DNA from: [Lactobacillus] rogosae
GTDB lineage: Bacteria; Bacillota; Clostridia; Lachnospirales; Lachnospiraceae
NCBI GenBank assembly: GCA_900112995.1
Contig: FONU01000018.1
Span: forward strand, 1 to 64,000
Direction of reading: 5' to 3'
Length of the DNA: 64,000 nt
In this document: one piece after another, positions 1 through 16,781 of the stretch
Layout of the letters: the number at the start of each line of letters is the position of its first letter
How positions within the stretch are numbered: the stretch's first letter is position 1
Notes under the pieces: generated by a model
What the model was told of the DNA's origin: nothing
The model's database searches: none
Seen by the model: only the letters and a program-made list of their open reading frames with translations
Position numbers and translations under genes: made by a program

Positions 1-241
1 CTGATTTGTTGGATTCTCCGGAAATCACTCTAGCAACAAGTTCCAATTTTTCTTCAGGGGACCATTTTTTATAAGATCCTTTTGGCTTTAGTGCATCGGG
101 CCCTTGAGCATCTTCAAGATGCATCCAATCATTTAAGTAATGGATAAAACGTTCTCTGGAAATACCTTTAGGAATGTCTGGAACAATCCCTTGGCGATAC
201 ATCTCTACACATTTCCTTTTAAATTCATAACTATATCGCAT
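1..241 (-). CDS. Transposase N-terminus, IS3/IS150-like (partial)
   Basis: On the minus strand an ATG at 241 follows an AAGGAGG ribosome site (250-256) and opens a frame that starts MRYSYEFKRKCVEMYRQG and later reads KWSPEEKLELVARVISGE. This is the helix-turn-helix start typical of the OrfA part of IS3-family transposases, which binds the element ends. The frame continues past the window edge, so completeness and activity cannot be judged. Family placement rests on pattern recognition only. Confidence 0.7.
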   Translation of the reverse strand, partial: MRYSYEFKRKCVEMYRQGIVPDIPKGISRERFIHYLNDWMHLEDAQGPDALKPKGSYKKWSPEEKLELVARVISGESNKS

Positions 242-284
242 AAAAATACCCTCCTTACTGGTTTGTCCAGTAAAGAGGGTACAT
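1..284 (-). mobile_element. End of an IS3-like insertion sequence (partial)
   Basis: The element runs off the left edge of the window. Its right end appears to be near 284, where sequence resembling an IS terminus (reading TGTACCCTCTTTACTGGAC on the minus strand) meets sequence identical to an internal part of a hairpin repeat found elsewhere in the window (7164-7206, 16154-16196). The abrupt match to the repeat from about 285 is what places the boundary. The other end and any target duplication lie outside the window. Confidence 0.55.
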
Positions 285-322
285 ATCAAAAACCTTTCAG
301 TACTTGCTCTTATTTTATTTAC
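285..322 (+). repeat. Right half of the recurrent hairpin repeat, cut by the IS
   Basis: The stretch AAAACCTTTCAGTACTTGCT followed by CTTATTTTATTT matches the 3' half of the hairpin at 7164-7215 and 16154-16200 almost base for base. The 5' arm is absent because the IS end lies directly upstream, so this copy can no longer form the terminator stem. Confidence 0.8.
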
Positions 323-334
323 AGGAGGTTTGCT

Positions 335-1186
335 ATGGATGACAAGATAGGTGCTGTTGTTAGTAAGCTACAGCAAAGACTTGGCGATGATTACGAGGTG
401 AGAATTGTTGATGTAACAAAGAACAATGATACTGTGAAGAAAGGTATTTCTGTCAGGAAGAATGGAGAGAAAATCGGAAGAATATATTACTGGAATGGAG
501 AAGCATTAGAAGCATTCCTTGGTGATGTAGAAAGCAGTCCTCTTCCTGATATAGACTTTGAAATGAGTCTTAAGAAGCAGAAGGACAACATAGTTGCTAT
601 TCTAATCAATGCTGAAGCGAATAAGGAACGGCTAAAGGATATGCCACATAGAATGGTAGAAGGTCTGGATCTGGCAGTTGTCTATAAGATAATATTCAAG
701 AAAGATTCAGAGGTAATAACATCATCAGATATCAATAATGGCATGATGGCAATGTTGAGAGTGACAGAAGGAGAATTGTATACCATTGCAATGAAGAATA
801 CAAAAGAATACTATGCTCCGGATATAAAATCTATGACAGAAACACTTAATGATATGATGAAAGAGTCTCAGGATATTGTAGAAGATATTCCTGAGACTCT
901 TTTTATATTGTCAAATGAAACAAGACAGTTTGGAGCAATATGTATGCTATATCCAGAAGTCTTAAAGAAGTTCTGTGTGGAAAAGATGATTGATGGAGTA
1001 TTTGTAATTCCTTCATCAATTCACGAAGTGTTGCTGATGATAGCAGATAAGAATAAGGTTGATGTTGGATATATAAGGCAGATGATTAAAGAGGTTAACT
1101 ATGAAAATGTGAGCGAGGTTGAAAGATTGTCTGATAGTCCGTATTACTATGATGTTGCAACAGATACATTAAGAATTGCTGAGTGA
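335..1186 (+). CDS. DUF5688 family protein
   Basis: This is a 283-residue soluble protein with no signal peptide or membrane segment. It shows features I associate with DUF5688, a family of unknown function common on Lachnospiraceae accessory DNA: an early motif with NREKL-like spacing (here NKERLKDMPHR), a central SNETRQFGAICMLYPEVL block and a C-terminal VLLMIADK...EVNYENV...SDSPYYYD block. The start at 335 follows ACAGGAGG; an in-frame extension upstream reads back into the IS and repeat and is not credible. No catalytic residues are recognised. It lies beside other small accessory genes, which fits mobile DNA. Confidence 0.75.
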   Translation: MDDKIGAVVSKLQQRLGDDYEVRIVDVTKNNDTVKKGISVRKNGEKIGRIYYWNGEALEAFLGDVESSPLPDIDFEMSLKKQKDNIVAILINAEANKERLKDMPHRMVEGLDLAVVYKIIFKKDSEVITSSDINNGMMAMLRVTEGELYTIAMKNTKEYYAPDIKSMTETLNDMMKESQDIVEDIPETLFILSNETRQFGAICMLYPEVLKKFCVEKMIDGVFVIPSSIHEVLLMIADKNKVDVGYIRQMIKEVNYENVSEVERLSDSPYYYDVATDTLRIAE

Positions 1187-1221
1187 AAATGTAAAACAAT
1201 GCTTACAGAACAGGAGGTCAT

Positions 1222-1560
1222 ATGTATACATTCAAAAGTGAAAAGGAACTGGAGAATATCATAAGGATTGATAAAAGTATACCTAATAAGGTAATAGAAA
1301 ATGCCAAGTATCATATAGGACTTGTTGAGGAAAGCTATGAGGATGGAGCCTGTGGCAACTTCTACATACTGACAGATGATAATGGCATAGATAGTGCGGT
1401 ATATAAAGATTGTCTTGCTAATTGTAACCTGGATGAAGATGAGTATGAGTTTGATGACCTGATATGTATGGACAATAATTATGAGTGGCACGTAAGGGCA
1501 TATATAGGAACAGAAGCATACTGGGTATTTTTCTATCGTGATTGCAGAAAGGAGCAGTAA
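1222..1560 (+). CDS. Hypothetical protein, acidic, 112 aa
   Basis: A small, strongly acidic protein begins 12 bases after a good AGGAGG site and ends one base before the next ATG, so it is probably co-transcribed with its neighbours. The sequence has a Cys pair (DCLANC, around residues 66-71) and a Trp/Tyr-rich C-terminus (WHVRAY...YWVFFYRDC). It has no membrane segment or known motif. I do not recognise the family; context is DUF5688 and DUF960-like accessory genes. Confidence 0.6.
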   Translation: MYTFKSEKELENIIRIDKSIPNKVIENAKYHIGLVEESYEDGACGNFYILTDDNGIDSAVYKDCLANCNLDEDEYEFDDLICMDNNYEWHVRAYIGTEAYWVFFYRDCRKEQ

Positions 1561-1785
1561 ATGGAAACTAAGAGAGAACAGATAACAACAGAGGTTGTAT
1601 TCAATGGAGACAGGACATATGAGATAAAGAGAAGAATAGAAGGGTATAAAGGAGACAAGGCAATACTGATAGGACTTTACCCTACTATTGATGGTGATAA
1701 CATTACCCAAATATAAGAGCAGATAGTTCTTGATTCAGATGATATGAAAGAGGTCGTTTTTCTGCCATATGAGAAGTATTTATAA
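1561..1785 (+). pseudogene. Small ORF interrupted by an in-frame TAA
   Basis: An ATG directly after the upstream stop, with AGGAG at about 1551, opens a frame coding for 51 residues (METKREQITTEVVFNGDR...) that stops at TAA 1714-1716. The same frame continues open for 22 more codons (EQIVLDSDDMKEVVFLPYEK) to a second TAA at 1783-1785. The downstream part looks like the natural C-terminus, so the most economical reading is one roughly 74-residue gene with a nonsense mutation. A genuine 51-residue product or a sequencing error cannot be excluded. Function unknown. Confidence 0.5.
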
Positions 1786-1820
1786 TAGTAATAAAGCGTA
1801 AACAGGAAGTGAGTGATAAG

Positions 1821-1970
1821 ATGTTTGATAATGACAGATATGTAACGAAAGGTATCAATGAGAAAATGCCTTCAGACGCACAGAAAGTGCATAAACATAA
1901 GTCAGAATATGAGTTTTTTTCTGTTGATGGCAACTATGTAGAAGGTAAAGTATATGTAATAGATGAATGA
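1821..1970 (+). CDS. DUF960-like miniature protein, 49 aa, probably internally deleted
   Basis: The frame follows AGGAAGTGAGTGATAAG and starts MFDNDRYVTKGINEKMP, the opening I associate with DUF960 proteins of Firmicute mobile elements. It then jumps to EYEFFSVDGNYVEGKVYVID, which resembles the C-terminal part of the same family. The middle of the domain is missing, so this is probably a remnant made by an internal deletion, although the frame is intact and it could still be translated. Confidence 0.45.
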   Translation: MFDNDRYVTKGINEKMPSDAQKVHKHKSEYEFFSVDGNYVEGKVYVIDE

Positions 1971-2312
1971 GTGTATGCAACAAAGCCTTGAGCAGAAGAA
2001 TACTAGAGAAAATGGTATTGAAAAGGCAGATTTGGAGATAATAATTCCTATTTACTTTTATTTGTAAGATGTATATTTTTTCATAAGATTAGGAGCACTT
2101 GCTAGTGATAGCTATATAGTAGTACAAAAAGAAATGTTATGATTCAATTAATAAAATTATTAGAATTAATACAAGAGTTTGATATAATAAGAAAAAAATT
2201 AATGCGAATTAATTTATTAAGTGGTGAAAGGTATAGATATAAGTGAGTATATAAAAGTAATATAGTATAATAAATTGGTGATAAAAATTATAAATAAATG
2301 AAAGGAATTAAT
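1971..2312 (+). promoter_or_regulatory. AT-rich intergenic region with candidate promoters for the HXS-like operon
   Basis: No gene is visible here. The best promoter candidate is an extended -10 (TGATATAAT, 2180-2188) with a poor -35 (TTAGAA, 2160-2165). A second TATAAT at 2266-2271 sits closer to the first gene. The whole stretch is A/T runs with no clear terminator for the upstream genes. Confidence 0.4.
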
Positions 2313-2663
2313 ATGTTTTTCTCAATTAAGAAAGATATTTATGATAAAAAAGTCTTATTAAAGACCTGTTATAAATTCACAGATGAATATTATATTCACT
2401 TGGATTCTAATAAGGATGAGTTTGTTATTAGTATACAAAAGAAAGATGGGAAGGCAGATACATCCATAGAAGGTGAATTTAAGAATGAACTTATTGAATT
2501 TGCTAATAGAGAGATAGTATTTGAACAAACGAAAAATATTAGAGAACTTCTTTTTGCAAGGTCAATGGCATCTTCAGTTATATATGATGATGAAATACAA
2601 ACAGATATTAATTTGAATGTCGATGATAACAGTTCAATGAGGGATTGGTTTGATAATGAATGA
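2313..2663 (+). CDS. hxsD: HXS system protein HxsD-like
   Basis: This 116-residue cytosolic protein opens the radical-SAM peptide operon. Its N-terminus (KKDIYDKKVLLKTCYKFTD, about residues 6-24) and central block (EFKNELIEFANREIVFEQT, then IRELLFARS) match the pattern I know for HxsD, the small fourth member of the His-Xaa-Ser system. HxsD has no known enzymatic role and probably helps substrate recognition. The start at 2313 is chosen because AAAGGA at 2300-2305 is well spaced, while the ATG at 2298 lacks a ribosome site. The acidic tail after residue 90 seems extra. It overlaps the next gene by 8 bases. Confidence 0.65.
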   Translation: MFFSIKKDIYDKKVLLKTCYKFTDEYYIHLDSNKDEFVISIQKKDGKADTSIEGEFKNELIEFANREIVFEQTKNIRELLFARSMASSVIYDDEIQTDINLNVDDNSSMRDWFDNE

Positions 2664-2868
2664 GTTAAAACTTAGTAAAGAAATATATAATTATGGTCTT
2701 GTTAAAATGGCAGTTAAAGAATTTGCTGGAATATCTAATATTGTTGTTAATATTGAAGAAAATTTTTTAAGATGCGTATTTACAAATTGTATTTATGATG
2801 TCGAAATTACATTGAAAGAATTTGAAAATTATGTCATTGATTTAAATAATCAAAGAGGATTGATATGA
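2656..2868 (+). CDS. Small HxsD-like paralogue, 70 aa
   Basis: This short protein overlaps hxsD and is followed by the peptidase gene, whose start overlaps its stop. Aligned by eye with the HxsD-like protein, it shares the opening K-[DE]-I-Y-[DN] and a Phe at the same distance, then a beta-like segment (NIVVNIEENFLRCVF) and a C-terminal helix (LKEFENYVIDL). I infer a diverged HxsD-type or peptide-recognition domain. The start is uncertain: TTG at 2650 is better spaced from GAGGG at 2639-2643, ATG at 2656 is further away. No known enzyme motif is present. Confidence 0.55.
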   Translation: MNELKLSKEIYNYGLVKMAVKEFAGISNIVVNIEENFLRCVFTNCIYDVEITLKEFENYVIDLNNQRGLI

Positions 2869-3896
2869 CAATGGTAATTAATGTGGTTCTTATAATATTA
2901 TTTTGTTATATTGCATTAATAAGTTATTACAGTGATAAGAAAAATGGGATAATTCCTAATAAAAATCTTTTAGTCATAGGAATAATAGCTGTTATATTGA
3001 AAATTTTAGATTACAAAAATATAGATATAATGATAATACAATTAGTTATAGCATGTATTTGTTCATTATTATTTTATTTATTACATATATGGGCTGGTGG
3101 TGATTCTAAGTTATTTATAGTTGAGGCTATATTGACACCTAATATATTATATGTTCAGGATAGAATGGCGATTTTCCAAGTAATAGTTTTTTCATACTCA
3201 TCGGTATATGTATATTTGATTATAGATAGTATATATGCATATATTCGCAAAAAAGAAACATATAATAAGCTTTCTTTGAAAAATATAAATGTAAAATTCT
3301 TTATTATGAATTGGTTATTAGTATTTTTGGCTTCAGCAGATATTCAAAAGCTGTTATATTATTTATTGAGAAAGTTTTATATTGAAAATTACATAATATT
3401 TGTTTTTGGAAATATGTTTTTTGTATTGATAATGAAAGAAGTTCTTGTAAAAGTAAGCAGACAATTAAGAAATAGTCTATTGATATTGTTATTGGTTTTA
3501 TTTATGGTTCTTTCTCTTATATCTCCAATAAATTTTAAAATTGATTTAAAAAACGTAATTATTGTTTTGGTTATAGTTATTCTTCGTGAATGGGCAGATA
3601 GGTATAGTTATACACCAATTAAGACTTTAGATATAAAAAAAGGAATGATATTATCTGCATCATCAGTAATGTTATTTTTAAACTCAAACATAAAAGGTCT
3701 GCCTATGAAAGTATCAGAAGATATGGCAGCCAGACTGACAGATGAGGAAGTAGATAGTATTAAAAGATGGGCAAGAACAAAGAATGGGAAAGATGAATTA
3801 ATTATAGTAAAGAAAATTCCATTTGCTTTTTTTATAAATATTGGTTATGCAATATTTATGATAATAGGAGGCTATAAGTTGTGGTTAGGTACATAA
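2865..3896 (+). CDS. Prepilin-peptidase-like (A24) membrane aspartyl protease in the HXS-like operon
   Basis: A polytopic membrane protein of 343 residues. The first 100 residues carry the two A24 signatures: D24 in SDKKNGIIPN and D80 in WAGGDSKLF, both next to transmembrane helices, as in type IV prepilin and TadV/FlaK peptidases, which cleave leader peptides at the cytosolic membrane face. More helices follow to about residue 275, then a soluble stretch (MAARLTDEEVDSIKRWAR) and one last helix near 320-340. It is longer than TadV-type enzymes. AAAGAGG precedes the ATG. It sits between the HxsD-like genes and the radical SAM genes, so the downstream repeat protein is its likely substrate. Confidence 0.75.
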   Translation: MTMVINVVLIILFCYIALISYYSDKKNGIIPNKNLLVIGIIAVILKILDYKNIDIMIIQLVIACICSLLFYLLHIWAGGDSKLFIVEAILTPNILYVQDRMAIFQVIVFSYSSVYVYLIIDSIYAYIRKKETYNKLSLKNINVKFFIMNWLLVFLASADIQKLLYYLLRKFYIENYIIFVFGNMFFVLIMKEVLVKVSRQLRNSLLILLLVLFMVLSLISPINFKIDLKNVIIVLVIVILREWADRYSYTPIKTLDIKKGMILSASSVMLFLNSNIKGLPMKVSEDMAARLTDEEVDSIKRWARTKNGKDELIIVKKIPFAFFINIGYAIFMIIGGYKLWLGT

Positions 3897-5002
3897 GTGA
3901 ATATAAAAGCAAGTATAGAATATTTATTTTTTCTACTAAAGAAATTTACACAAAGGAATTACTAAATAAACAAAAAAATGTAGGAGAGTTTATAAATAAT
4001 AAAATTGTATTTTATCCAGATGGAGAGACAGTAAAATTAAGTCCTAAAGAAATAAAAATAATGGATGAATTCTGTGATGGAGATGTTTTAGAAATATCAG
4101 AAACAGGTATAATTTACAGATGGTATTCGGTTATAGAAGGAGATGCAGGTATTGCGACAACTCCAAAATGTAATTCTAATTGCATAATGTGCCCTGCAAG
4201 TGATGGTGAACGAAGTCATAATACAGGATTATCATTAGAACAGCTAGAAACAGTAATCAAACATATGCCAGAAGATTTATGGTATTTTACAATAACAGGA
4301 GGAGAACCAACTTTAATTGGTGAAGATAATTTTATAGAAATATATAGAACAGTAAAAGAACATCTGCCGAATACCAATATATTGCTTTTAACAAATGGTA
4401 GGACGTTGGGAAATTATAGTTTTTTTGAAAAGTTTAAAAAGGAAAATATGAAAAATCTTAGAATAGCTATACCTATTCACGGAAGTATAGCATCAAAATA
4501 TGATTATATAACGCAGGCAAAAGGTGGATTTGAGCAAACAATTAGAGGGTTGACTAATATTATTAATGCTAATATTGAAACAGAAATAAGAATTGTAGTT
4601 AGCAAGCTAAATGAGGATGATATACTTGATATTGCCAAGCTCATTGTTGCAAAATTTAAAAGAGTAAGAGTAGTTCATTTTGTAGGACTTGAAATGCGAG
4701 GTAATTGTGCTGCTAATGCTGATAAAGTGGTTATATCGTATGAGGAGGCTTTTTCAAAGTCAAAGAAAGCAATTCAATTATTAATGATAAATGGGATTGA
4801 TGTTGCTTTATATAATTTTCCTTATTGTATGATTGAGAGAGGATATTGGTCATTAGCGAAGAAAAGTATTTCATCATATAAGGCAGAGTATTATGTTGAA
4901 TGTGATAAATGTAAAATGAAGTCTATGTGTTGTGGGATTTTTACAGCTACAAGAAATTTTTACAAGCCAAGAGTATATCCAATAAAAGGTGATAATGAAT
5001 GA
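3881..5002 (+). CDS. hxsC: Radical SAM maturase, HxsC-like
   Basis: A 373-residue radical SAM enzyme. The 4Fe-4S ligands form CNSNCIMC (C97, C101, C104), followed by the SAM-binding TGGEPT block near residue 139. A C-terminal cysteine group (ECDKCKMKSMCC, about residues 344-355) could hold an extra cluster. The roughly 90-residue N-terminal domain before the radical SAM core and the CNSNC motif fit HxsC, one of the paired enzymes of the His-Xaa-Ser system that modify a repeat peptide. It starts with GTG inside the end of the peptidase gene and overlaps the next gene by 4 bases, so translation is coupled. Confidence 0.75.
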   Translation: MVRYISEYKSKYRIFIFSTKEIYTKELLNKQKNVGEFINNKIVFYPDGETVKLSPKEIKIMDEFCDGDVLEISETGIIYRWYSVIEGDAGIATTPKCNSNCIMCPASDGERSHNTGLSLEQLETVIKHMPEDLWYFTITGGEPTLIGEDNFIEIYRTVKEHLPNTNILLLTNGRTLGNYSFFEKFKKENMKNLRIAIPIHGSIASKYDYITQAKGGFEQTIRGLTNIINANIETEIRIVVSKLNEDDILDIAKLIVAKFKRVRVVHFVGLEMRGNCAANADKVVISYEEAFSKSKKAIQLLMINGIDVALYNFPYCMIERGYWSLAKKSISSYKAEYYVECDKCKMKSMCCGIFTATRNFYKPRVYPIKGDNE

Positions 5003-6402
5003 TAGGTTATTTTAATGCTAAAAAACAGAGTGAGGATGAATATTTACTTACAAATGATATGGGATTTTATAAGTATGTAAATTCAGAAACATATGATAAA
5101 TTATGCAATAATAAAATCGACAAAGAAGATGAAGATTATGAGGATTTGATTGAAAAAGGGTTTATTATTAATATATCAATAGAAGAATATATAAAAAAAT
5201 ATTCTGGATTTATAAGAAGTATGAAATCATATTGTATGGGAGGTACTTCTTTACATATATTTGCAGTTACCAATATGTGCAATCTTGACTGTATTTATTG
5301 TCAGGCACATAGTAGAAATTCACATTTGAATGGTAAAATGACAGAGGAAATAGGAAAGCGTGCAATTGATATTGCGATGAATTCCAAGAATGATAACCTG
5401 ACATTTGAATTTCAAGGTGGCGAGCCGTTGTTAAACTTCAATGTTATAAAAAGTATGATTGAGTATTCAAAGGAAAAAAATAAAATTTTAAATAAACATA
5501 TTGAATACACAATAGTAACAAATTTGACGTGTCTGAATGATGATATATTACATTTTTTGTTAGATAATAATGTTAGTATATGTACTTCATTAGATGGAAC
5601 AAGAGAAATTCATAATTATAATAGACCATACAAATTATCAAAAATAGGTAGTTTTGATGATGTTATTGATAAAATAGCATATTTAAAAAGTAAAGGTGTA
5701 AATGTTGGGGCTATTCAAACAACTTCTAAAAAAAGTATTCAAAATCCTAAAGAGATAATAGATATGTATTTAAAGATTGGCATAAACCATATTTTTTTAA
5801 GACCATTAACTCCATTAGGTATGGCTGATGATTCGTGGAAGAAGGTTGGATATACAGTAGAAGAATATATAAATTTTTATAAAGAAGCATTTCAGTATAT
5901 AATGGAACTTAATAAAAATGGTACATTTTTTGTTGAAACGCATGCGGCATATTTTTTGTGTAAGATACTTGAAAATTATTCTCAAAATTATATGGAATTA
6001 CGTTCGCCTTGTGGCGCTACATTAGGACAAATGAGTTATTATTATGATGGCAATATATTTACCTGTGATGAAGGAAGAATGTTATATGAAATGGGAGATA
6101 GTTCTTTCTTGCTAGGAAATGTATATAATGATTCATATATGGATATGATTGGTTCCGATATATGTAAAACATTATGTAAGTCCTCTATAATAGAAAGTCT
6201 TCCAAAATGTAATAATTGTGTATATCAGCCATACTGTGGAACTTGTCCTGTTGTTAATTATGCCAGCGATAAGGATTTGTTTTCTAAAAATCCAAAGGAT
6301 TTTAGATGTAAAAGTTACTCAGCAATTATGGATTTATTATTTGAAATAATACATAGAAATGACAAACAGGAAATGGATATATTATATTCGTGGATAAGAT
6401 GA
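4999..6402 (+). CDS. hxsB: Radical SAM maturase with SPASM-like C-terminus, HxsB-like
   Basis: A 467-residue radical SAM protein. An N-terminal domain of about 80 residues precedes LHIFAVTNMCNLDCIYCQ (C94, C98, C101) and the EFQGGEPLLNF block near residue 138, both very like HxsB. The C-terminal third carries many cysteines (CGATLGQ, FTCDEGR, CNNCVYQPYCGTC, FRCKSY), the SPASM-type arrangement for auxiliary iron-sulfur clusters. Such enzymes make crosslinks or other changes on ribosomal peptides; the chemistry here is unknown. ATG overlaps the end of hxsC, and the substrate gene begins 11 bases after the stop. Confidence 0.75.
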   Translation: MIGYFNAKKQSEDEYLLTNDMGFYKYVNSETYDKLCNNKIDKEDEDYEDLIEKGFIINISIEEYIKKYSGFIRSMKSYCMGGTSLHIFAVTNMCNLDCIYCQAHSRNSHLNGKMTEEIGKRAIDIAMNSKNDNLTFEFQGGEPLLNFNVIKSMIEYSKEKNKILNKHIEYTIVTNLTCLNDDILHFLLDNNVSICTSLDGTREIHNYNRPYKLSKIGSFDDVIDKIAYLKSKGVNVGAIQTTSKKSIQNPKEIIDMYLKIGINHIFLRPLTPLGMADDSWKKVGYTVEEYINFYKEAFQYIMELNKNGTFFVETHAAYFLCKILENYSQNYMELRSPCGATLGQMSYYYDGNIFTCDEGRMLYEMGDSSFLLGNVYNDSYMDMIGSDICKTLCKSSIIESLPKCNNCVYQPYCGTCPVVNYASDKDLFSKNPKDFRCKSYSAIMDLLFEIIHRNDKQEMDILYSWIR

Positions 6403-6412
6403 GGTGATATGG

Positions 6413-7123
6413 ATGGAAGAGAAAAAGTTTCCTAAAATAAGTAAATCTATTCAAGATTTTTTTGAGGATGAAGATGGAAGTATAACAAGAAATAAAGCAT
6501 TGTTAATGGGTGGAATGATATTAGTGTTAGGGATGCTTTTTAGTGATGAGGTGTATGCTGCACATAGAACTCATTCAACGCATAGGACACATTCGACCCA
6601 TAGGACTTCTAATAATGCGCATGGAAGTCATTCAACACACGCAACTCATAGCAATACACATTCAAATCATGCAACTCATTCAACACATGATTCACATAGC
6701 TCCCATAGTACACATTCAAATCACGCAACACATTCGACAAGTACTGTAGCACCAACAACACAGTCAGCACCAACAGAATCAGCAACAGCAGCACCAACAA
6801 CTCAGTCAGCAACGATAGAACCAACAACAGCAGCACCAACAACACAGTCAGCAACGATAGAACCAACAACAGCAGCACCAACAACTCAGTCAGCAACGAT
6901 AGAATCTACAACTATAGCACCAACAACGCAAGCGGTAACAATTGAATCAACAACATCAGCAATGACGGAAGAGGCGGCAATAGATGCTGGAACTTTAAAT
7001 TCTGCATGTAATGATGTAATAAATACGTTAGTAGGCGGTGGAACATTGGCAGCAGTTGGAGGAGTTTTAGCACACAAAATAAAAAAGAATAAAGATAAAA
7101 ATAAGGATGATAATAAAAAATAG
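6413..7123 (+). CDS. hxsA: His-Xaa-Ser/Thr repeat protein, HxsA-like modification substrate
   Basis: A 236-residue protein in clear modules. Residues 1-22 form a charged leader ending FFEDEDG. Residues 29-43 are a hydrophobic helix, and VYA-A at 47-50 is a good signal peptidase I site. Residues 51-107 hold 18 histidines, nearly all as H-x-S/T triplets. Residues 113-182 are five 14-residue Thr-rich repeats, and residues 203-221 are a Gly-rich weak membrane segment before a Lys-rich tail. GAGGTG at 6401-6406 supports ATG 6413 rather than the GTG inside it. It is the likely target of the two radical SAM enzymes. DEDGS before the helix resembles Flp pilin leaders, matching the A24 peptidase in the operon. 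Confidence 0.75.
   Translation: MEEKKFPKISKSIQDFFEDEDGSITRNKALLMGGMILVLGMLFSDEVYAAHRTHSTHRTHSTHRTSNNAHGSHSTHATHSNTHSNHATHSTHDSHSSHSTHSNHATHSTSTVAPTTQSAPTESATAAPTTQSATIEPTTAAPTTQSATIEPTTAAPTTQSATIESTTIAPTTQAVTIESTTSAMTEEAAIDAGTLNSACNDVINTLVGGGTLAAVGGVLAHKIKKNKDKNKDDNKK
6563..6733 (+). repeat. Codon-level His-x-Ser/Thr triplet repeat
   Basis: A 171-base stretch of CAT/CAC codons every third codon encodes HRT, HST, HAT, HGS, HDS and similar triplets. Two phase breaks occur, at SNNAH and NTH. Synonymous differences between units show that the repeat has been kept at protein level rather than being a very recent DNA expansion. Confidence 0.9.
6749..6958 (+). repeat. Five tandem 42-bp units in the repeat-protein gene
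   Basis: Five in-frame 42-base units encode the consensus APTTQSATIEPTTA. The three central units are almost identical at DNA level, which points to recent duplication; the first and last have drifted. The low-complexity Thr/Pro segment looks like a stalk or linker between the His repeat and the C-terminal membrane segment. Confidence 0.9.
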
Positions 7124-7163
7124 CACGATTATTTAATTAAAATTTAATATAATAATTTAAAAC

Positions 7164-7215
7164 AGAGCAAGTACTAAGGTGACGAAAACCTTTCAGTACT
7201 TGCTCTTATTTTATT
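7164..7215 (+). terminator. Hairpin terminator closing the HXS-like operon (repeat copy)
   Basis: AGAGCAAGTACT (7164-7175) pairs with AGTACTTGCTCT (7195-7206); an inner AAGG/CCTT pair extends the stem, and a T-rich run follows. It is one copy of a repeat seen again at 16154-16196 and in broken form at 285 and 7791/9121. Function as a terminator is inferred from shape and position 40 bases after the last operon gene. Confidence 0.75.
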
Positions 7216-7417
7216 TAAAGAATGAAGAAGAATGATACTGAACTGAGAAAATTCATGTCAGGAGAAAGAACAACAACATTGAACAGTTATGTTTACTCCT
7301 GTGGCACTTGGTGTCAGGGGGAGAGGAATGATTGAGAATAGGAGTTTTAACTTGGTTGAGTTTTATGTTAAAATGGATAAAACGAATCGAAGTTTGTGCA
7401 TTATGGAGGATATTAGA

Positions 7418-7753
7418 ATGAAGATTAATGAATATCAGGAATTGGCAATGACTACTTTAAATCCTGAACTAAGTAAAAGAGATGTATTAATAAATAGTGT
7501 AATGGGATTATGTGGCGAATCAGGAGAAGCCATTGATATAGTAAAAAAATGGATGGCTCAAGGACATGAATTGGACAAGGAACATTTGGCAAAGGAACTT
7601 GGAGATGTAGCTTGGTATTTGGCAGAAGCTGCAACAGCATTAGATATATCGCTTGAAGATATTTTACAAGCAAATATCGATAAATTAAAGATGAGGTATC
7701 CAGACGGATTTGAAACGAAAAAATCTTTAGTGCGCCTAAAAGGAGATATATAA
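7418..7753 (+). CDS. MazG-like nucleotide pyrophosphohydrolase, 111 aa
   Basis: A small all-alpha protein with the MazG-type metal site: GLCGESGEAIDIVKKW around residues 31-46 (EExxE-like, here E35 and E38) and ELGDVAWYLAEAA around residues 62-74 (E62, D65). Such proteins hydrolyse nucleoside triphosphates to monophosphates and are common in phages and accessory DNA as well as in housekeeping roles. The start at 7418 follows GGAGGA (7405-7410); the longer in-frame extension upstream looks non-coding. It stands alone between two repeat copies. Confidence 0.8.
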   Translation: MKINEYQELAMTTLNPELSKRDVLINSVMGLCGESGEAIDIVKKWMAQGHELDKEHLAKELGDVAWYLAEAATALDISLEDILQANIDKLKMRYPDGFETKKSLVRLKGDI

Positions 7754-7790
7754 ACTCAAGTTTATAGATTACATCTCACAGAATATCCGT

Positions 7791-7842
7791 AAATCACCTG
7801 CCTACAACCATATATAATAAATTTGATATAAAAAACAGAGCA
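7791..7842 (+). repeat. Left part of the recurrent repeat, interrupted
   Basis: The sequence AAATCA...CATATATAATAAATTTGATATAAAAAACAGAGCAA aligns with the left part of the complete copy at 16107-16160, including the first bases of the hairpin arm, then departs. The matching right flank reappears at 9121-9160, so the DNA between looks like an insertion or replacement. Confidence 0.65.
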
Positions 7843-8058
7843 ACAGGTATAGTTTTTCCATTTTCATCTAGAAAGGTTTTTAGAGTTTATGATGCATCAT
7901 ATTCTGAAAAATTGGTTTATAAAGAATTATCACAGTATCGAATAAGGAACGATAGAGAATTTTTTTTATTATCATATTCAAAAGCATGTGAAATGATAGA
8001 GAAAATTTTAATAGACAATAATATGATGTATTATAAGTATGACAATAAAGAAAAGTAG
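7843..8058 (+). pseudogene. C-terminal remnant of a T5orf172/GIY-YIG-like nuclease
   Basis: An open frame without a usable start codon ends at TAG 8056-8058 and encodes RKVFRVYDASYSEKLVYKEL, then SQYRIRNDREFFLLSYSKAC. The pattern of a basic start, a short acidic turn, an ExxxYR block and an EFF motif resembles the C-terminal half of T5orf172 (GIY-YIG related) domains found in phage and mobile proteins. The N-terminal catalytic half is missing, and the frame begins exactly where the broken repeat copy ends, so this is read as a 5'-truncated gene. Confidence 0.45.
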
Positions 8059-8089
8059 TAATTTGAGTATTAGTTTATAGGAGTTTTAT

Positions 8090-8950
8090 ATGAGTGATTT
8101 AAAAGCAATAGAGTATAAAAGATTTGAAGATATAAAGCATATTAATGAGAATGGTAGTGAATATTGGAGTGCGAGAGAATTAGCCGTTGCTTTAGATTAT
8201 GTTCAGTGGCGAAATTTTGAAAAAGTAATAAAACGTGCAATGATTGCATGTGAAAATAGTGGACATAATGTTATGGACGATTTTGCTGAGGTCAGCAAAA
8301 TCGTGGAAGCTGGTGCAACACACAAATCTACAAGGGATTATGAATTATCAAGATATGCTTGCTATTTAATAGTTCAAAATGGTGATCCGAGAAAAGAGGT
8401 CATTGCTTTAGGACAAACATATTTTGCAATTCAGACATATAGACAAGAAGTAGCTGATCATTTCAATGAATTGGATGAGGATAATAGAAGGTTGGTGGTG
8501 AGAGGGGATATAAAGCAATGGAATCAGATGTTAGCAGAAACTGCTCATAATGCAGGTGTTATTACAAATGAAGAGTTTGCTATTTTTCAAAATGCGGGTT
8601 ATATGGGACTTTATGGAGGTCTTGATGTGGATGATATTCATACGAGAAAACAATTGGAAGTGGGGCAGAAAATTCTTGATTATATGGGAAGTACAGAGTT
8701 AATTGCCAATTTGTTTAGAATATCACAAACAGAAGAAAAATTAAGAAAAGATAAAGTGCAAGGTGCTGAAAAAGCAACATCGGTTCATTATAATGTTGGC
8801 AAAGAAGTAAGAAACGCAATAGAAAAAATAGGTGGAACTATGCCAGAAGATTTACCAACACCAGAAAAAAGTATTCAACAAATTGAAAAGGAACAAATGG
8901 AAAGATTGCGTAACAAAGCCCAAAATGGGAAACTTATGTTGGACGAATAG
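8090..8950 (+). CDS. dinD: DNA damage-inducible protein D (DinD) family
   Basis: A 286-residue soluble protein starting with an AGGAG-preceded ATG. The N-terminal half (YWSARELAVALDYVQWRNFEKVIKRA, then DYELSRYACYLIVQNGDPRK) is the Bro-N-like domain of DinD, followed by the C-terminal DinD part (GYMGLYGGLDVDDIHTRKQL, FRISQTEEKLRKD). E. coli DinD is SOS-induced and modulates RecA filaments; the family is frequent on islands. No LexA-type operator is obvious upstream. It sits inside what looks like a block inserted into the repeat element. Confidence 0.85.
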   Translation: MSDLKAIEYKRFEDIKHINENGSEYWSARELAVALDYVQWRNFEKVIKRAMIACENSGHNVMDDFAEVSKIVEAGATHKSTRDYELSRYACYLIVQNGDPRKEVIALGQTYFAIQTYRQEVADHFNELDEDNRRLVVRGDIKQWNQMLAETAHNAGVITNEEFAIFQNAGYMGLYGGLDVDDIHTRKQLEVGQKILDYMGSTELIANLFRISQTEEKLRKDKVQGAEKATSVHYNVGKEVRNAIEKIGGTMPEDLPTPEKSIQQIEKEQMERLRNKAQNGKLMLDE

Positions 8951-9120
8951 ATTAAAAGATATTTATATTTGAAATAAAACTATGGATTTTTCAGGTGCTA
9001 GTTTAGAGTCGAGTGTTCATTAACTCAGTTGATATATGTGTTGTGTAAGAATATTTGTTTGTATATGATGCTTGAAATCACGTAAGAATAATTAAAAAAG
9101 TTTTGGGCACTTTTCCGGCA

Positions 9121-9160
9121 CTTATTTCATCACTAATCATTACATAAAAATCATTACACA
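9121..9160 (+). repeat. Right flank of the recurrent repeat
   Basis: Forty bases (CTTATTTCATCACTAATCAT and onward to TCATTACACA) match 16195-16234 at 37 of 40 positions by hand alignment. The hairpin arms that precede this flank in the complete copy are absent; the sequence before 9121 is unrelated. Confidence 0.7.
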
Positions 9161-9205
9161 GGCTATCGGATCCTACTGGACTAGTGCCATAAAGGAGACC
9201 TAAGA

Positions 9206-9250
9206 AAGTCAGTGTTTAAGCGGTCTCACGGCTTCGAACCCCGGTGGGCT
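9206..9250 (+). other. tRNA/tmRNA-like 3'-end remnant, possible attachment site
   Basis: The stretch ending GCTTCGAACCCCGGTGGGCT looks like the T-arm and acceptor strand of a tRNA-like RNA (TTCGAAC loop). However, the expected five-base T stem is imperfect and no matching 5' acceptor strand or cloverleaf is found upstream. A strong terminator follows 8 bases later. It is best read as a degenerate 3' end left by island integration. A full tRNA is not supported. Confidence 0.3.
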
Positions 9251-9257
9251 CATTGTC

Positions 9258-9288
9258 AAGGGAATGGTTGAAGACCATTCCCTTTTTT
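9258..9288 (+). terminator. Strong rho-independent terminator
   Basis: AAGGGAATGGT pairs perfectly with ACCATTCCCTT around a five-base loop and runs into TTTTTTCTTTT. It follows the tRNA-like remnant. The rest of 8951-9487 shows no gene: it holds the repeat flank at 9121, this structure, and an AT-rich promoter region for the next operon. Confidence 0.85.
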
Positions 9289-9487
9289 CTTTTCGTGTCC
9301 GGTGACTAGGAGGGGAACGGGTGTCTTGTGAAGAAATTCATTCTTCATTATTTCCAAGTGGTGTTAATGAAAAAAGTGAAAAATATCAAAATATTTACAT
9401 TATTTACAATAAACAGGGAAAAGGGTATTATTATCAAAGAAATTTAGTGAATTGACCAGAATTTATCAGGCGGAAATGGAGAAGAAA

Positions 9488-10159
9488 ATGTATAAGGTGT
9501 TAATAGTAGAGGATGAAAAGGTAATTGCAGATACACTTGCGGCTCATCTTAACAAGTGGGGATATGAGGCGGTATGTGTTACTGATTTTCAGAATGTGTT
9601 AGAGGAGTTTGAAAGAGAAAAGCCCCATATTGTTCTTATGGATATAGGGTTGCCCTTTTTTAATGGGTATCACTGGTGTACCCAGATTAGAGCTCAGTCT
9701 AAGGTGCCTGTTATATTTCTATCTTCAATGTCGGACAATATGAATATTGTTATGGCCATTAATATGGGCGGTGACGATTTTATTACGAAGCCCTATGACC
9801 TTAATGTGGTTGTGGCAAAGGTGCAGGCACTTCTTAGAAGAACCTATGATTTTACTGACAATACAAGCACAATTGAGCATAATGGCGGGGTGTTGAATTT
9901 AAATGACCAGACATTTATGTATAATAATAATAAGGTTGAACTTACTAAGAATGAATACAGGATATTGCAGTGTCTTCTTGAAAATGTAGGTAAGGTTGTA
10001 AGCCGTGACAGTATTATGGAAAAACTCTGGGAGGATGAAGCATTTGTTGATGATAATACACTTACTGTCAATGTTACCAGACTTAGAAGAAAGCTTGAGG
10101 ATGCAGGGGTCAGCGATTATATTAGAACAAAAAAAGGAGTGGGATATATTATTTCATGA
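9488..10159 (+). CDS. OmpR-family response regulator, BceR-like
   Basis: A 223-residue response regulator. The receiver domain has acidic residues E8-D9, phospho-acceptor D52 in LMDIGLPFF and the conserved Lys in FITKPYD; the C-terminal half is a winged helix (NEYRILQCLLENVGKVVSRD, VNVTRLRRKL, GVGYI). The start at 9488 follows GGAG (9478-9481); a TTG-initiated longer frame is unlikely. It overlaps the kinase gene by ATGA. Its neighbours are an intramembrane-sensing kinase and a BceAB-type transporter, so it probably activates that transporter when antimicrobial peptides are sensed. Confidence 0.85.
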   Translation: MYKVLIVEDEKVIADTLAAHLNKWGYEAVCVTDFQNVLEEFEREKPHIVLMDIGLPFFNGYHWCTQIRAQSKVPVIFLSSMSDNMNIVMAINMGGDDFITKPYDLNVVVAKVQALLRRTYDFTDNTSTIEHNGGVLNLNDQTFMYNNNKVELTKNEYRILQCLLENVGKVVSRDSIMEKLWEDEAFVDDNTLTVNVTRLRRKLEDAGVSDYIRTKKGVGYIIS

Positions 10160-11172
10160 AAAATGTGGTGTTATATCTAAAAAGCAGAATAAAGGTTATA
10201 GTGATGCTTGTGGTAATTGCGATTGTGCAGTTTGTAGTGTTTTATCTTTATTCGGTGCCAGTGGCACCTGTTATATATTCATTGGAATTGCTGTCCTTTA
10301 TGCTGGCTGTGGCAGTTGTTTTTGATTATATGGCATTTTACAGAAGGCATAAGGCGCTTAAGCACAGCCTTTTGTGTGATGAGATTTTTCAGGTTGAATT
10401 ATATGATACTTCTGATGCAATAGAGGATGATTATCAGCAGCTTCTTACAAAGGTGCTTACGCAGAAGTATCAGGCTAATGAGCTTAGAGAGAAATCGATG
10501 GCAGACCTAAGAGATTACTATGCTATCTGGGCACATCAGATTAAGACACCTATATCGGCAATAGATGTACTGCTTCAGGCAGAGAATGAACCGGATAAAA
10601 TTGACTTAAAGGAGCTTAAAAGGCAGCTTTTTAATATTGATTTCTACGTGGATGCTGTTATGAATTACCTAAGGCTTGAGGATATGTCCTCTGATTATGT
10701 ATTTGAGGACTGTCAGGTTGAAAAAATTGTGCGAAAGGCAGTTAAAAAATTCGCGGCACAGTTCATAGGTAAGAAGATATCAATTGAGCTTAACAACCTT
10801 GATACAAATGTAAAAACAGATGAGAAGTGGCTTGGCTTTATAATAGAGCAGCTTATTTCCAATGCGGTTAAATACACCAGAAATGGCGGAAAAATCAGCA
10901 TATATATGAAGGAAACCTTCAATAGTGCTGATAGAATTCTGGTTATTGAGGATAACGGAATAGGGATTACTAAGGAAGATATTCCAAGAATCTTTGAGCG
11001 AGGATACACGGGCTACAATGGAAGAATGAGTAAAAAATCATCGGGAATCGGTCTGTACCTTTGCAGGAAAGCAGCAGATAAGCTGGGGATTTCTATTGCA
11101 ATAGAGTCAAAACTGGATAAGGGAACTAAGGTGCTTCTGGATATGACGCAGAAGTATATCTCACATGAGTAA
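10156..11172 (+). CDS. Sensor histidine kinase, BceS-like intramembrane-sensing
   Basis: A 338-residue kinase. Two transmembrane helices (about residues 12-32 and 37-60) are joined by only a few residues, so there is no real extracellular sensor. This is the design of BceS kinases, which read the state of their ABC transporter. The phospho-acceptor H127 lies in WAHQIKTPISA; the ATPase part has the N box (EQLISNAVKYT), DNGIGI and SSGIGLYLC. It is co-transcribed with the upstream regulator. A 190-base gap with a BceR-type site separates it from the transporter genes. Confidence 0.85.
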   Translation: MKNVVLYLKSRIKVIVMLVVIAIVQFVVFYLYSVPVAPVIYSLELLSFMLAVAVVFDYMAFYRRHKALKHSLLCDEIFQVELYDTSDAIEDDYQQLLTKVLTQKYQANELREKSMADLRDYYAIWAHQIKTPISAIDVLLQAENEPDKIDLKELKRQLFNIDFYVDAVMNYLRLEDMSSDYVFEDCQVEKIVRKAVKKFAAQFIGKKISIELNNLDTNVKTDEKWLGFIIEQLISNAVKYTRNGGKISIYMKETFNSADRILVIEDNGIGITKEDIPRIFERGYTGYNGRMSKKSSGIGLYLCRKAADKLGISIAIESKLDKGTKVLLDMTQKYISHE

Positions 11173-11251
11173 GTTTAATAGATTCTTGTAAGATGATTTT
11201 TAATATAATACGTTGTGCAAGCTATACAATTTACGTTATTAAATATTTATC

Positions 11252-11265
11252 TTACAAAAATGTAA
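11252..11265 (+). promoter_or_regulatory. BceR-type operator upstream of the transporter genes
   Basis: TTACAAAAATGTAA matches the BceR-family consensus TnACA-N4-TGTAA known from Firmicutes exactly, including the four-base spacer. It lies 97 bases before the transporter ATPase start, where a target promoter of the adjacent regulator is expected. A further GTAAG half-like sequence follows at about 11273. Confidence 0.65.
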
Positions 11266-11361
11266 GAAAAACGTAAGCTGCTTAAATGGCAGGGAATGCA
11301 AACTCTGCGTATACTTGGCATTGTAAGAAATGTTAGATGTTTGAAACACAAGGAGGATTGT

Positions 11362-12129
11362 ATGGCATTATTAGATGTAAGAAATTTGAAAAAGGTATAC
11401 ACAACAAGGTTAGGTTCTAATCAGGTTCAGGCGCTTTCTAACGTGAATTTCAGCGTTGAGCAGGGCGAGTATGTGGCTATTATGGGAGAGTCTGGTTCAG
11501 GAAAGACTACGCTTCTTAATATACTGGCGTCGCTCGACAGGCCTACAGGTGGTGAGGTTATTCTTAATGGCAAGAATACAGTGGATATTAAAGAAAAGGA
11601 ATTATCAGCATTTAGAAGAAAGAACCTTGGCTTTGTATTCCAGGATTTTAATTTGTTAGATACATTTTCACTGCAGGACAATATATTCCTTCCGCTGGTG
11701 TTGTCAGGGGAGAAGTATGATAGCATGCAAGAGAAGCTTAAGCCAATTGCAAAGGAGCTGGGAATTGAGTCTATATTAGGAAAGTTCCCATATGAGGTGT
11801 CAGGTGGACAGAAGCAGAGGGCAGCGGTTGCGAGAGCTCTTATTACTAACCCTCAGATTATTCTGGCAGATGAGCCCACAGGAGCGCTGGATTCAAAGTC
11901 TACAGACCAGCTTTTAGAGCTGTTTAGCAAGATTAACGGACGTGGTCAGACAATACTTATGGTAACTCATAGCACTAAGGCTGCAAGCAAGGCGGGCAGA
12001 GTGTTATTTATCAAGGATGGAGAGGTGTTCCATCAGATATACAAGGCATCAATGACAGACGAGGAAATGTACACTAAGATTTCTGATACACTGACTGTTT
12101 TGGCAACAGGAGGTGAGAGCCTTGAGTAA
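11362..12129 (+). CDS. ABC transporter ATPase, BceA-like
   Basis: A 255-residue ABC ATPase of the MacB/LolD/BceA class: Walker A GESGSGKTTL (about residues 43-52), Q-loop FVFQDFN, signature VSGGQKQR, Walker B IILADEPTGALD and the switch His in MVTHSTKAA. The ATG at 11362 follows AAGGAGG; in-frame codons upstream are non-coding. Paired with the 676-residue permease downstream, it should form a peptide-antibiotic detoxification and sensing complex. Confidence 0.88.
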   Translation: MALLDVRNLKKVYTTRLGSNQVQALSNVNFSVEQGEYVAIMGESGSGKTTLLNILASLDRPTGGEVILNGKNTVDIKEKELSAFRRKNLGFVFQDFNLLDTFSLQDNIFLPLVLSGEKYDSMQEKLKPIAKELGIESILGKFPYEVSGGQKQRAAVARALITNPQIILADEPTGALDSKSTDQLLELFSKINGRGQTILMVTHSTKAASKAGRVLFIKDGEVFHQIYKASMTDEEMYTKISDTLTVLATGGESLE

Positions 12130-14152
12130 AGCATTTTATCCTAAAATGGCGCTGTCTAATATAAATAAGAACAGACAGACTTATTTTCCATACATTATAA
12201 CCTGCATCCTTACTATTATGATGTATTTTATGATGGGCTCAATACTTCATAATGAGAATGTAAGAAATATGAATCACGGTGATATGGTTATTGTGCTCCT
12301 GAATATTGGTATGTGGGTTACGATGATTTTCGCAGTTGTATTTCTTTTTTATACCAACAGCTTCTTAATTAAGAGAAGACAAAAGGAAATTGGACTTTAT
12401 AACATTCTTGGAATGGAAAAAAGGCATATTGCAAAGATGATGTTTTATGAGACATTATTTACAGCAGTGGTAAGTATAGGCATTGGAATGCTTATGGGTA
12501 TGCTATTTGGAAAGCTGATGTTTCTTTTACTGATTAAGCTTATTGGCTCTAGCGAAATTCCGGCGTTTCAGATTCCAAGTGAAGCAGTAGTTAATACTCT
12601 TGTCACAATGGCATTAGTATTTTTTGCAATTTTACTTTATAACCTGGCAAGAATTCATCTTACGAAGCCGATTGAACTTATTCACGGTGGACAGATTGGT
12701 GAAAAGGAGCCAAAGACAAAGATACTTCTTACAATAATTGGCGTTCTTACTATGGGCGCAGGCTACACATTTGCACTGACAGCAAAAACCCCATTTCAGG
12801 CTATGAATAATTTCCTTGTTGCGGTTATTCTTGTTATTGTGGGCACCTATTGTCTGTTTACAGCAGGAAGCATTGCATTTATTAAGCTTCTTAGAAAAAA
12901 CAAAAAGTTTTATTACCAGACAAAGCATTTTACAAGTGTATCTGGAATGCTTTACAGAATGAAGCAAAATGCAGTTGGGCTGGCCAATATATGTATTCTT
13001 TCAACTATGGTTTTAATCAGCGTATCAACTACGGTGTCTATGTATCTTGGTATGGAGGATACACTGAATACGGCTTGCCCTAATGAGATTAACCTGAGTG
13101 CTTCATTCTACGGCGAGAAGGATACTGATATGGTTGAAAATGTTGTTGATGAGATGGCAAAAAAATATGGTGCAACCACATCTAATTACTCAGGTGTTTC
13201 TTCTATTACATTATTTTGCAATGCTAGTAGTGAGAGCGGTGAGTTTCAGGTGTTAAAGCAATCTAATATGTCAGGTGCGTATATGGATAATCTGTCGGGT
13301 TGTTTGTGTATGACGGTTGATGATTTTAATAAGTTGGAGAAGAGTAACTATAAGCTTAATGAAGGTCAGGTTATTGTTTATAAAAATAATGGCTATAAAG
13401 CTGCTAATGTAAGGCTGTCAATCGATGATGAAACAAGTACATTTAAGGTGGCAAAGGTTATTACAAAGTTAGAAAATGCACATCTTGGAATTGAAAATAC
13501 TGAACAGCTTGTCCCTTGTTATGTATTCATAGTAGACAGTGAGAAGACTTTGGAGAAAATCGTTGATGCAATGCAGAGTGGTAACGTGGTTGAGAAAAGA
13601 AAAGCTGCAACCTACGATTATGTAGTTCAGTTTGATACTAATCTTACAAAAGAACAGAGTATTGCAATGAGTAGAGAACTGGATGCCCTTGACCTTGAAG
13701 GGGTTAGGATAGTTTCAGACAACAGATATGAGATGGCTGAGGAATTTCATCAGATGTATGGAGGCTTCCTGTTTATAGGAATGTTTGTAGGTTCATTATT
13801 CTTAATGGCAACTGTACTCATAATCTATTACAAGCAGATATCAGAAGGCTATGAAGATAAGGCAAGATTTGAAATCATGCAGAAGGTTGGCATGAGCAGA
13901 GCAGAAGTTAAAAAGACAATAAGAAGCCAGGTGCTTATGGTATTCTTTATTCCTCTTATAATGGCAGCAATTCATATTGTTGTATCATTTAGAATTATTA
14001 AGATGATTCTTTCAATGCTTAATCTTGGAAATGTAAATCTGTTTATGTGGTGTACTCTTGGAACGGTTCTTGTGTTCTGTGTAATATATGCTATCGTATT
14101 CGCCATTACAGAAAGGGCATATTACAAGATTGTCAGCATAGGTAATAAATAA
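12122..14152 (+). CDS. ABC transporter permease, BceB-like
   Basis: A permease of about 676 residues with FtsX-type domains. The hydrophobic helices fall into an N-terminal group (helix pairs to about residue 310), then a soluble extracellular region of roughly 200 residues (about 320-545), then the last helices. This layout, with the big loop late in the protein, is characteristic of BceB, whose loop binds bacitracin-like peptides. GGAGGTG at 12109-12115 points to TTG 12122 as the start, since the GTG at 12113 lies inside that site. It overlaps the ATPase stop. Confidence 0.85.
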   Translation: MSKAFYPKMALSNINKNRQTYFPYIITCILTIMMYFMMGSILHNENVRNMNHGDMVIVLLNIGMWVTMIFAVVFLFYTNSFLIKRRQKEIGLYNILGMEKRHIAKMMFYETLFTAVVSIGIGMLMGMLFGKLMFLLLIKLIGSSEIPAFQIPSEAVVNTLVTMALVFFAILLYNLARIHLTKPIELIHGGQIGEKEPKTKILLTIIGVLTMGAGYTFALTAKTPFQAMNNFLVAVILVIVGTYCLFTAGSIAFIKLLRKNKKFYYQTKHFTSVSGMLYRMKQNAVGLANICILSTMVLISVSTTVSMYLGMEDTLNTACPNEINLSASFYGEKDTDMVENVVDEMAKKYGATTSNYSGVSSITLFCNASSESGEFQVLKQSNMSGAYMDNLSGCLCMTVDDFNKLEKSNYKLNEGQVIVYKNNGYKAANVRLSIDDETSTFKVAKVITKLENAHLGIENTEQLVPCYVFIVDSEKTLEKIVDAMQSGNVVEKRKAATYDYVVQFDTNLTKEQSIAMSRELDALDLEGVRIVSDNRYEMAEEFHQMYGGFLFIGMFVGSLFLMATVLIIYYKQISEGYEDKARFEIMQKVGMSRAEVKKTIRSQVLMVFFIPLIMAAIHIVVSFRIIKMILSMLNLGNVNLFMWCTLGTVLVFCVIYAIVFAITERAYYKIVSIGNK

Positions 14153-14214
14153 AGACTTATGTGGTGTTAGAAATATAAATTGTCAAATTGTTTGAAAAAA
14201 ATTTGAAAAACCTT

Positions 14215-14260
14215 AATTTCCAGCCCGAGATAGCCCTAAAGGCATCTCAGGCTGGAAATT
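14215..14260 (+). terminator. Hairpin after the bce-like operon
   Basis: AATTTCCAGCC-GAGAT pairs with ATCTCA-GGCTGGAAATT, giving a stem of about 16 base pairs with a short loop. The T-tract is weak on both strands, but the position between an operon end and a minus-strand ORF suggests bidirectional termination. Confidence 0.7.
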
Positions 14261-14305
14261 TACATGTTATTGGCACCTTGAATCTGTGCTTCCGTCATAC
14301 ATATA

Positions 14306-14443
14306 TCATGTTCTTTCGCAAATCAACGTCTTTTTCTTCTGGCTGTTCTTAAATAATAATTCCCGTACAGACATCATAACTTCATGATAGAGAAGAATAA
14401 TTATATCGCCATACCTGACTGCAAAATAGTATTCCGTTAACAT
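14306..14443 (-). CDS. Hypothetical 45-aa ORF, possibly a remnant
   Basis: On the minus strand GAGGTG precedes an ATG at 14443 that opens MLTEYYFAVRYGDIIILLYH. Just upstream, another frame ends with GRSYEEIMQYLHSKSEEV (stop at 14448), which looks protein-like but has no good start. Together these may be the decayed end of a small operon or mobile gene. I do not recognise either product. Confidence 0.3.
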   Translation of the reverse strand: MLTEYYFAVRYGDIIILLYHEVMMSVRELLFKNSQKKKTLICERT

Positions 14444-14591
14444 TTGGTCACACCTCTTCAGATTTACTGTGCAGGTACTGCATGATTTCTTCATAACTTC
14501 GTCCGCTCTGTGCTATATGCATAAATACTGGGATTGTTTGAAAGTGAGTTAGACACTTTTTCTGTACTCTATGCCATAAATCGCTAGAAAA

Positions 14592-14606
14592 TGTAATTCA
14601 ATTACA
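14592..14606 (+). promoter_or_regulatory. Perfect palindrome in the MATE promoter region
   Basis: TGTAATTCAATTACA is a perfect 15-base dyad 50 bases before the MATE start, just upstream of a TATTAT/TATAAA -10 candidate (14608-14617). Size and position fit an operator for a MarR- or TetR-type repressor. Which regulator binds cannot be told. Confidence 0.45.
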
Positions 14607-14655
14607 GTATTATTATAAACAACAGATACAGACAGATTCAGGAATGGAGATTACC

Positions 14656-16047: not shown

Positions 16048-16106
16048 GTAATATTGCAGGCTTGCGAAAAGAGTGCAATAAGATTGATAAAAAATTAAAG
16101 AACAGC

Positions 16107-16234: not shown

Positions 16235-16275
16235 AAATAGAGTAAAGATTTTGTGAGTTGAATAAGAAAAAATGA

Positions 16276-16320: not shown

Positions 16321-16338
16321 ATAGTAAAGGAGGTCAGG

Positions 16339-16779: not shown

Positions 16780-16781
16780 TA

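Follow-up and report, generated by a model that had tools for sequence, protein, structure and literature searches.

The question raised by this locus is why a prepilin-type (A24) peptidase gene lies among the maturase genes of an HXS operon. Leader removal and export are poorly understood for many radical-SAM peptides. The operon stands in the window (the whole 64,000-nucleotide stretch of DNA analysed), which is the start of its contig in a near-complete 2.8-Mb genome of Lachnospiraceae. Judging from its covariation with a pilin-like site in that protein, the peptidase probably cuts off the leader of the HxsA precursor; in full, with a probability of about 0.72, it would be the dedicated A24 endopeptidase of HXS, cutting after the conserved Gly of HxsA3 at the cytosolic face of the membrane, so that the leader is removed and a Sec-like remainder is left. 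The first-pass annotation had suggested leader removal at the cytosolic face by a dedicated peptidase, after modification; the comparative evidence given below bears on the removal, not on its timing, and supports it as the best explanation.

Six genes are arranged head to tail with overlaps in the order hxsD, hxsD-like, A24, hxsC, hxsB and hxsA3, and five of them exceed curated NCBIfam cut-offs, the exception being the A24 gene. HxsB, HxsC, HxsD and a His-Xaa-Ser repeat protein were found in one locus (TIGR03978, TIGR03977, TIGR03976 and NF038309, above cut-offs), which makes this an HXS operon. The features are as follows.

2298..2663, + strand: hxsD (TIGR03976, E 3.5e-24, 85 bits, above cut-off)
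2313, + strand: in-frame ATG, a possible alternative start of hxsD, from the sequence
2656..2868, + strand: hxsD-like gene (NF038315, E 7.9e-16, 58 bits, above cut-off)
2865..3896, + strand: predicted A24, FlaK-like membrane aspartyl peptidase, 343 aa (Pfam A24, alignment of relatives, model, same slot in 58/58)
2934..2936, + strand: codon of D24, first conserved aspartate (invariant in 57 homologues; aligned with FlaK chain position 25)
3102..3104, + strand: codon of D80, second conserved aspartate, GGD motif (invariant in 57 homologues; aligned with FlaK chain position 86)
3881..5002, + strand: hxsC, radical SAM maturase, GTG start (TIGR03977, E 8.8e-85, above cut-off)
4999..6402, + strand: hxsB, radical SAM/SPASM maturase (TIGR03978, E 3.9e-153, above cut-off)
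6413..7123, + strand: hxsA3, repeat-bearing precursor, the ORF opening with GTG at 6404, with an ATG at 6413 (NF038309, E 6.4e-32, above cut-off)
6476..6478, + strand: codon of HxsA3 Gly22, with the predicted A24 cut directly after it, between EDEDG and SITRNK (Gly conservation; covariation with the peptidase)
6497..6541, + strand: hydrophobic segment of HxsA3, ALLMGGMILVLGMLF (sequence; homologous segment in all A24-linked precursors)
6557..6559, + strand: last codon of the AxA-like VYA, directly before AHRTHS and the repeats, where signal peptidase I might cut (-3/-1 pattern)

The A24 ORF is intact; its ATG overlaps the stop codon of the HxsD-like gene (ATGA), as had been read at first pass, with the neighbour now matching NF038315, and its 3' end overlaps the hxsC ORF. 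Inspection by eye of the ORFs in window positions 1-20000 revealed no gene for a pilin or for pilus assembly, in agreement with the earlier statement that no pilin genes are nearby. For HxsD, a structural model (window 2313-2663) had a ferredoxin-like beta-alpha-beta-beta-alpha arrangement (pLDDT 85.3; best matches Z 7.2 or less). A PqqD-like leader-binding domain, also considered for HxsD, is not obvious, the best matches of the model being ferredoxin-like; no PqqD-like chain was among the structural matches listed, which excludes nothing. Besides the THx repeats, HxsA3 (6413-7123) has a Thr/Pro-rich repeat region, and its C-terminus carries a second hydrophobic stretch and a Lys-rich end, with weak Gram-positive-anchor-like matches below cut-off.

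Pfam Peptidase_A24 matched residues 11-92 of the window protein with E 9e-4 and 20.1 bits against a cut-off of 26.5, and the same stretch reached 29.6 bits, above the cut-off, in the whole-genome scan. PF01478 was matched by 55 of 57 homologues (E<=0.1; best 1.5e-10), and NCBIfam matches among them were FlaK in two and EppA in one. Only D24 (in SDKKNGIIPN), N32, G79, D80 (in GGDSKL) and K82 are invariant in the alignment of the 57 homologues (A2). The best solved relative by profile was FlaK (3S0X, E 0.021), whose chain positions 25 and 86 align with D24 and D80; with a seven-residue offset, we take these positions to be FlaK D18 and D79. The AlphaFold2 model of the A24 protein had a mean pLDDT of 90.7 and a pTM of 0.86. 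A Foldseek search of the PDB with this model gave no match at E<=0.001, and FlaK appeared only in the VIA re-alignment, in which VIA-align of model and 3S0X gave Z 10.9 (next chain 5.0), a value below the level advised for helical bundles, with an rmsd of 4.1 over 196 aligned residues. Because the Foldseek search was not significant and Z was below that level, the fold assignment draws on sequence and structure jointly. When its relatives are taken into account, the window gene can be assigned firmly, by sequence and predicted model, to the FlaK-like A24 (GxGD) membrane aspartyl peptidases. The earlier proposal of an A24 peptidase with two aspartates at 2865-3896 is thus borne out by PF01478, the invariant D24/D80 and the FlaK match; a predicted fold other than A24 had been named as evidence against it, and the predicted fold is A24-like with FlaK as best match.

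The two Asp of FlaK face the cytosol, and its cut falls behind a conserved Gly (PMC4985597); the product of A24 cleavage retains its hydrophobic domain (PMC4858521). Like FlaK (A24B; 3S0X) and archaeal A24 enzymes such as EppA, the window protein has two conserved Asp in matching positions, and the archaeal-type C-terminal domain (PF06847) is detectable in 11/57 of its relatives; its likely substrate has a conserved Gly before a hydrophobic segment, and the mechanism would be the same. Unlike FlaK, it is bacterial, encoded in an HXS operon and about 115 residues longer, apparently with extra helices around residues 128-246; identity is 15%, and the putative substrate is neither archaellin nor pilin. 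With PilD and CpaA/TadV it shares the A24 catalytic core and, presumably, cleavage behind a Gly on the cytosolic side of the membrane, whereas no methyltransferase domain was detected in Pfam scans of the window protein and its relatives, and the HXS A24 gene lies outside any pilus operon. Three other A24 genes were found on two other contigs of the window genome, with neighbours that are Tad-like by eye only, and the HXS A24 gene is therefore a separate paralogue.

The spread of the gene was determined by scanning an HxsB alignment (A1) against about 85,000 species genomes, which yielded 80 HxsB-anchored loci, and the slot gene was looked for in these with a profile built from five A24 proteins. 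An A24 homologue lies directly upstream of hxsC in 58/58 Bacillota/Eggerthellaceae HXS operons covering the slot, three of them truncated at contig ends and one broken by an assembly gap; one genome is present twice among the main loci (L034 = L096). L099/G332 was left out, its contig stopping before the slot (~0.5 kb upstream of hxsB), and the Bacillota loci L089 and L094, which have no A24 gene, were not counted as HXS operons because neither HxsC nor HxsA was seen. In an A2 search of 397 Lachnospiraceae genomes, full-length matches came from just three genomes (that of the window, G102 and G159), all of them among the four with HxsB above the cut-off, the fourth being G332; one further match was a 190-aa generic A24. 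Only over-cut-off HxsB matches were used for this comparison because the profile gives sub-cut-off matches in almost all genomes. The gene is a dedicated, fixed A24 gene of one HXS branch and near-exclusive to HXS genomes. The first-pass annotation had held the peptidase to be devoted to the operon and had counted absence from relatives' operons as evidence against this; the same slot is filled in all 58, and the full-length Lachnospiraceae matches occur only with HXS.

Outside these operons, the subtype adjoins HxsC-like radical SAM genes in Omnitrophota (L097, L107), Elusimicrobiota (L144), a MAG (L146), Schekmanbacteria (L126), Planctomycetota (L143) and Myxococcota (L141, L142); it lies inside an HXS cluster in a second Elusimicrobiota genome (L117), and on a separate contig beside an HxsC-like gene in Bdellovibrionota (L147) and in G777 (L145). 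An apparent A24-HxsC fusion in Oscillibacter ruminantium (1273-aa ORF) was rejected as an artefact of an assembly gap of N's.

The window operon shares hxsD, hxsC, hxsB and a His-Xaa-Ser repeat precursor with classical HXS (HxsA-B-C-D; TIGR03976-03978), and differs from it in the added A24 and HxsD-like genes and in an HxsA3 precursor of EEG type. Pseudomonas aeruginosa HXS, as listed, consists of HxsA-D only (PMC8446631). No A24 gene was found near six plasmid-borne classical HXS operons, and the readable HxsA of the plasmid-borne classical operons has a short signal-like N-terminus at its start. The earlier view that the A24 gene is not part of classical HXS thus agrees with its absence beside the classical operons examined. 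A literature search, which did not cover the founding HXS paper, found no paper joining a prepilin peptidase with RiPPs or HXS; the A24 neighbour may be familiar to the NCBI curators behind HxsA3 and HxsD_rel.

The precursor leaders were compared in a set of 77 distinct A24-linked sequences, with positions counted from Gly = 0. The site residue is Gly in 76/77 leaders and Ala in one, and the two preceding residues are, in sequence order, E in 75/77 (otherwise Q) and E or D in 77/77. I or V is present at +2 in 77/77 and R or K at +4 in 74/77; +5 is mostly N, G or S, with no Glu tallied among the residues listed for the 77 leaders, and +6 is mostly K. The combination that marks type IV and Flp pilins, a hydrophobic stretch right after Gly with Glu at +5, was not found in HxsA3. 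The layout of the window HxsA3 is MEEKKFPKISKSIQDFFEDEDG, then SITRNKALLMGGMILVLGMLFSDEVYA, then AHRTHS. An LP...FL..E-type stretch lies upstream of the site and occurs also in A24-less Myxococcota HxsA; since it is common to A24-less HxsA, this stretch likely serves the maturases, and the Gly boundary the peptidase.

If the peptidase cuts HxsA, a prepilin-like site is expected only where the peptidase exists. HxsD was found in 112/329 Myxococcota genomes, regions of 80 were taken, and those 80 genomes were searched with A2; 14 of the 80 contained a full-length or split HXS-type A24, and the remaining matches were generic ones, short and weak. The HxsA precursors were taken from the loci themselves and from pattern searches. 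After correction of four rows by eye, (E/D)(E/D)G-x-(I/V) followed by a hydrophobic segment was present in 83/83 A24-positive loci or genomes with readable HxsA, versus 0/53 A24-negative ones. The corrections (L116 and L117, leader far from the repeats; G1060, false EEG match with no Gly; G1011, false Tat match upstream of the start) changed the table from 81/2/1/52 to 83/0/0/53. The uncorrected automatic table, whose rows are related, gave a Fisher p of 5e-34, and for Myxococcota alone the uncorrected counts were 13/0 versus 1/46 (p 3e-12). A24-negative precursors carry a twin-arginine signal at the same place or have no comparable hydrophobic leader; a twin-arginine (Tat-like) signal stands exactly at the EEG position in four A24-less genomes (G776, G778, G782 and G800; L148, L151, L162 and L239), and in one example of this type KEA-RVTRRDFLSSSS replaces EEG-KITRSQAAKIG.

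In several A24-positive Myxococcota, HxsA and the peptidase lie on different contigs, and close linkage alone therefore fails to explain the covariation. On the HxsB tree of 114 rows, four changes are needed to account for the A24 state and likewise four for the leader state, so that independent evolutionary events are few, about four. The independent pairs on this tree all agree (one on well-supported branches, four on the best tree), and these are too few for a sign test to reach significance. Absence of the peptidase is less certain than its presence because many of the genomes are MAGs. As comparative sequence evidence, this covariation is the strongest new argument that the A24 protein acts on the HxsA leader.

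In the proposed pathway, HxsA3 would start with a cytosolic leader, which the conserved (E/D)(E/D)G-x-(I/V)-x-(R/K) boundary separates from a hydrophobic segment, and an AxA-like end would then lead into the repeats. HxsB and HxsC, together with HxsD and the HxsD-like protein, would modify the repeats in the cytosol via the leader, and the peptidase would take off the leader by cutting behind the conserved Gly on the cytosolic side of the membrane. The predicted remainder resembles a short Sec signal peptide (positive, hydrophobic, AxA), and signal peptidase I could therefore release the repeat domain outside the cell. It counts against this explanation that in principle signal peptidase I might not need the A24 cut, and that the site departs from pilins in having no Glu5 and in placing R/K ahead of the hydrophobic stretch, after the Gly.

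The order of the two cuts might instead be reversed, as in eukaryotic signal peptide peptidase action, with signal peptidase I cutting first and the A24 protein then clearing the leader-plus-membrane remnant through cleavage within the membrane or at its edge. GxGD proteases do include presenilin/SPP-type enzymes (PMC4985597), and residues -3/-1 at the AxA-like end of the hydrophobic segment before the repeats fit a signal peptidase I site in 63/65 matches, several of which fall inside or near the repeats and not at their start. With such a scavenger, however, one would expect neither a near-invariant Gly boundary in the substrate outside the membrane (76/77) nor so strict a covariation with the site, and the closest structure is that of a preflagellin peptidase, FlaK, so that we regard action after export as improbable.

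The chance is slighter still that HxsA is a true pilin-like subunit, which the peptidase would make ready for assembly into a filament, the assembly being done by a Tad or type IV machine encoded at another locus. The HxsA3 leader, FFEDEDG followed by SI, presumably resembles Flp/Tad pilin leaders, and the other A24 genes of the genome with their Tad-like neighbours (by eye) would fit. Against this stand the residues after the Gly (no Glu seen at +5, R/K at +4, mostly K at +6), the AxA-like end, an operon without assembly genes, and Oscillibacter ruminantium, in which the HXS A24 is the only A24 found.

It is very unlikely that the peptidase serves another operon protein, such as a membrane-anchored MORN-repeat protein, and is linked to HxsA indirectly: a MORN-like protein was matched in 48 Clostridial loci (phmmer, repeat-rich query), but the window and several close relatives give no MORN match yet keep the peptidase, which tracks the HxsA site instead. 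Just as poor is the case for the EEG motif as a recognition element for the maturases only, with the A24 protein a conserved passenger or regulator that does not act on HxsA as a protease, since the leader part upstream of the site, common to A24-less Myxococcota HxsA, does show that the leader serves more than the peptidase, but the catalytic residues are invariant and the Gly boundary and hydrophobic segment are the very parts lost when the peptidase is absent.

Removal of the HxsA3 leader by the A24 peptidase, if true, would put the GxGD family to a new use beyond surface filaments. The proposal gives the HXS family a precise predicted cut site, shows which partner to include and which N-terminus to expect, and offers an annotation rule: the HxsA3-type branch of HXS can be recognised by this A24 subtype. 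The wider scenario, to which we give even odds, is that a pilin-family GxGD protease was taken over as a leader peptidase for a radical-SAM peptide, its cut producing a Sec-exportable precursor, with Tat as the alternative in some A24-less lineages.

Several further features of the loci were recorded. In the clusters L144, L146 and L126 the A24 gene is surrounded by runs of several HxsC-like radical SAM genes in tandem, and a NifH-like ATPase was recognised by eye in L144 and L146. A MORN-repeat protein with an N-terminal hydrophobic segment adjoins hxsA in many Clostridial loci (L033:9465-10838, L034:9082-10464 and L040:2165-2971 (-)). Downstream of hxsA in G102 (L033:11448-15272), XpaC-like, two TelA-like and rhomboid-like proteins were seen by eye, with few other loci matching. 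In Clostridium beijerinckii HUN142, two hxsA genes (L083:5433-5882 and 6767-7132) lie upstream of a single maturation gene set.
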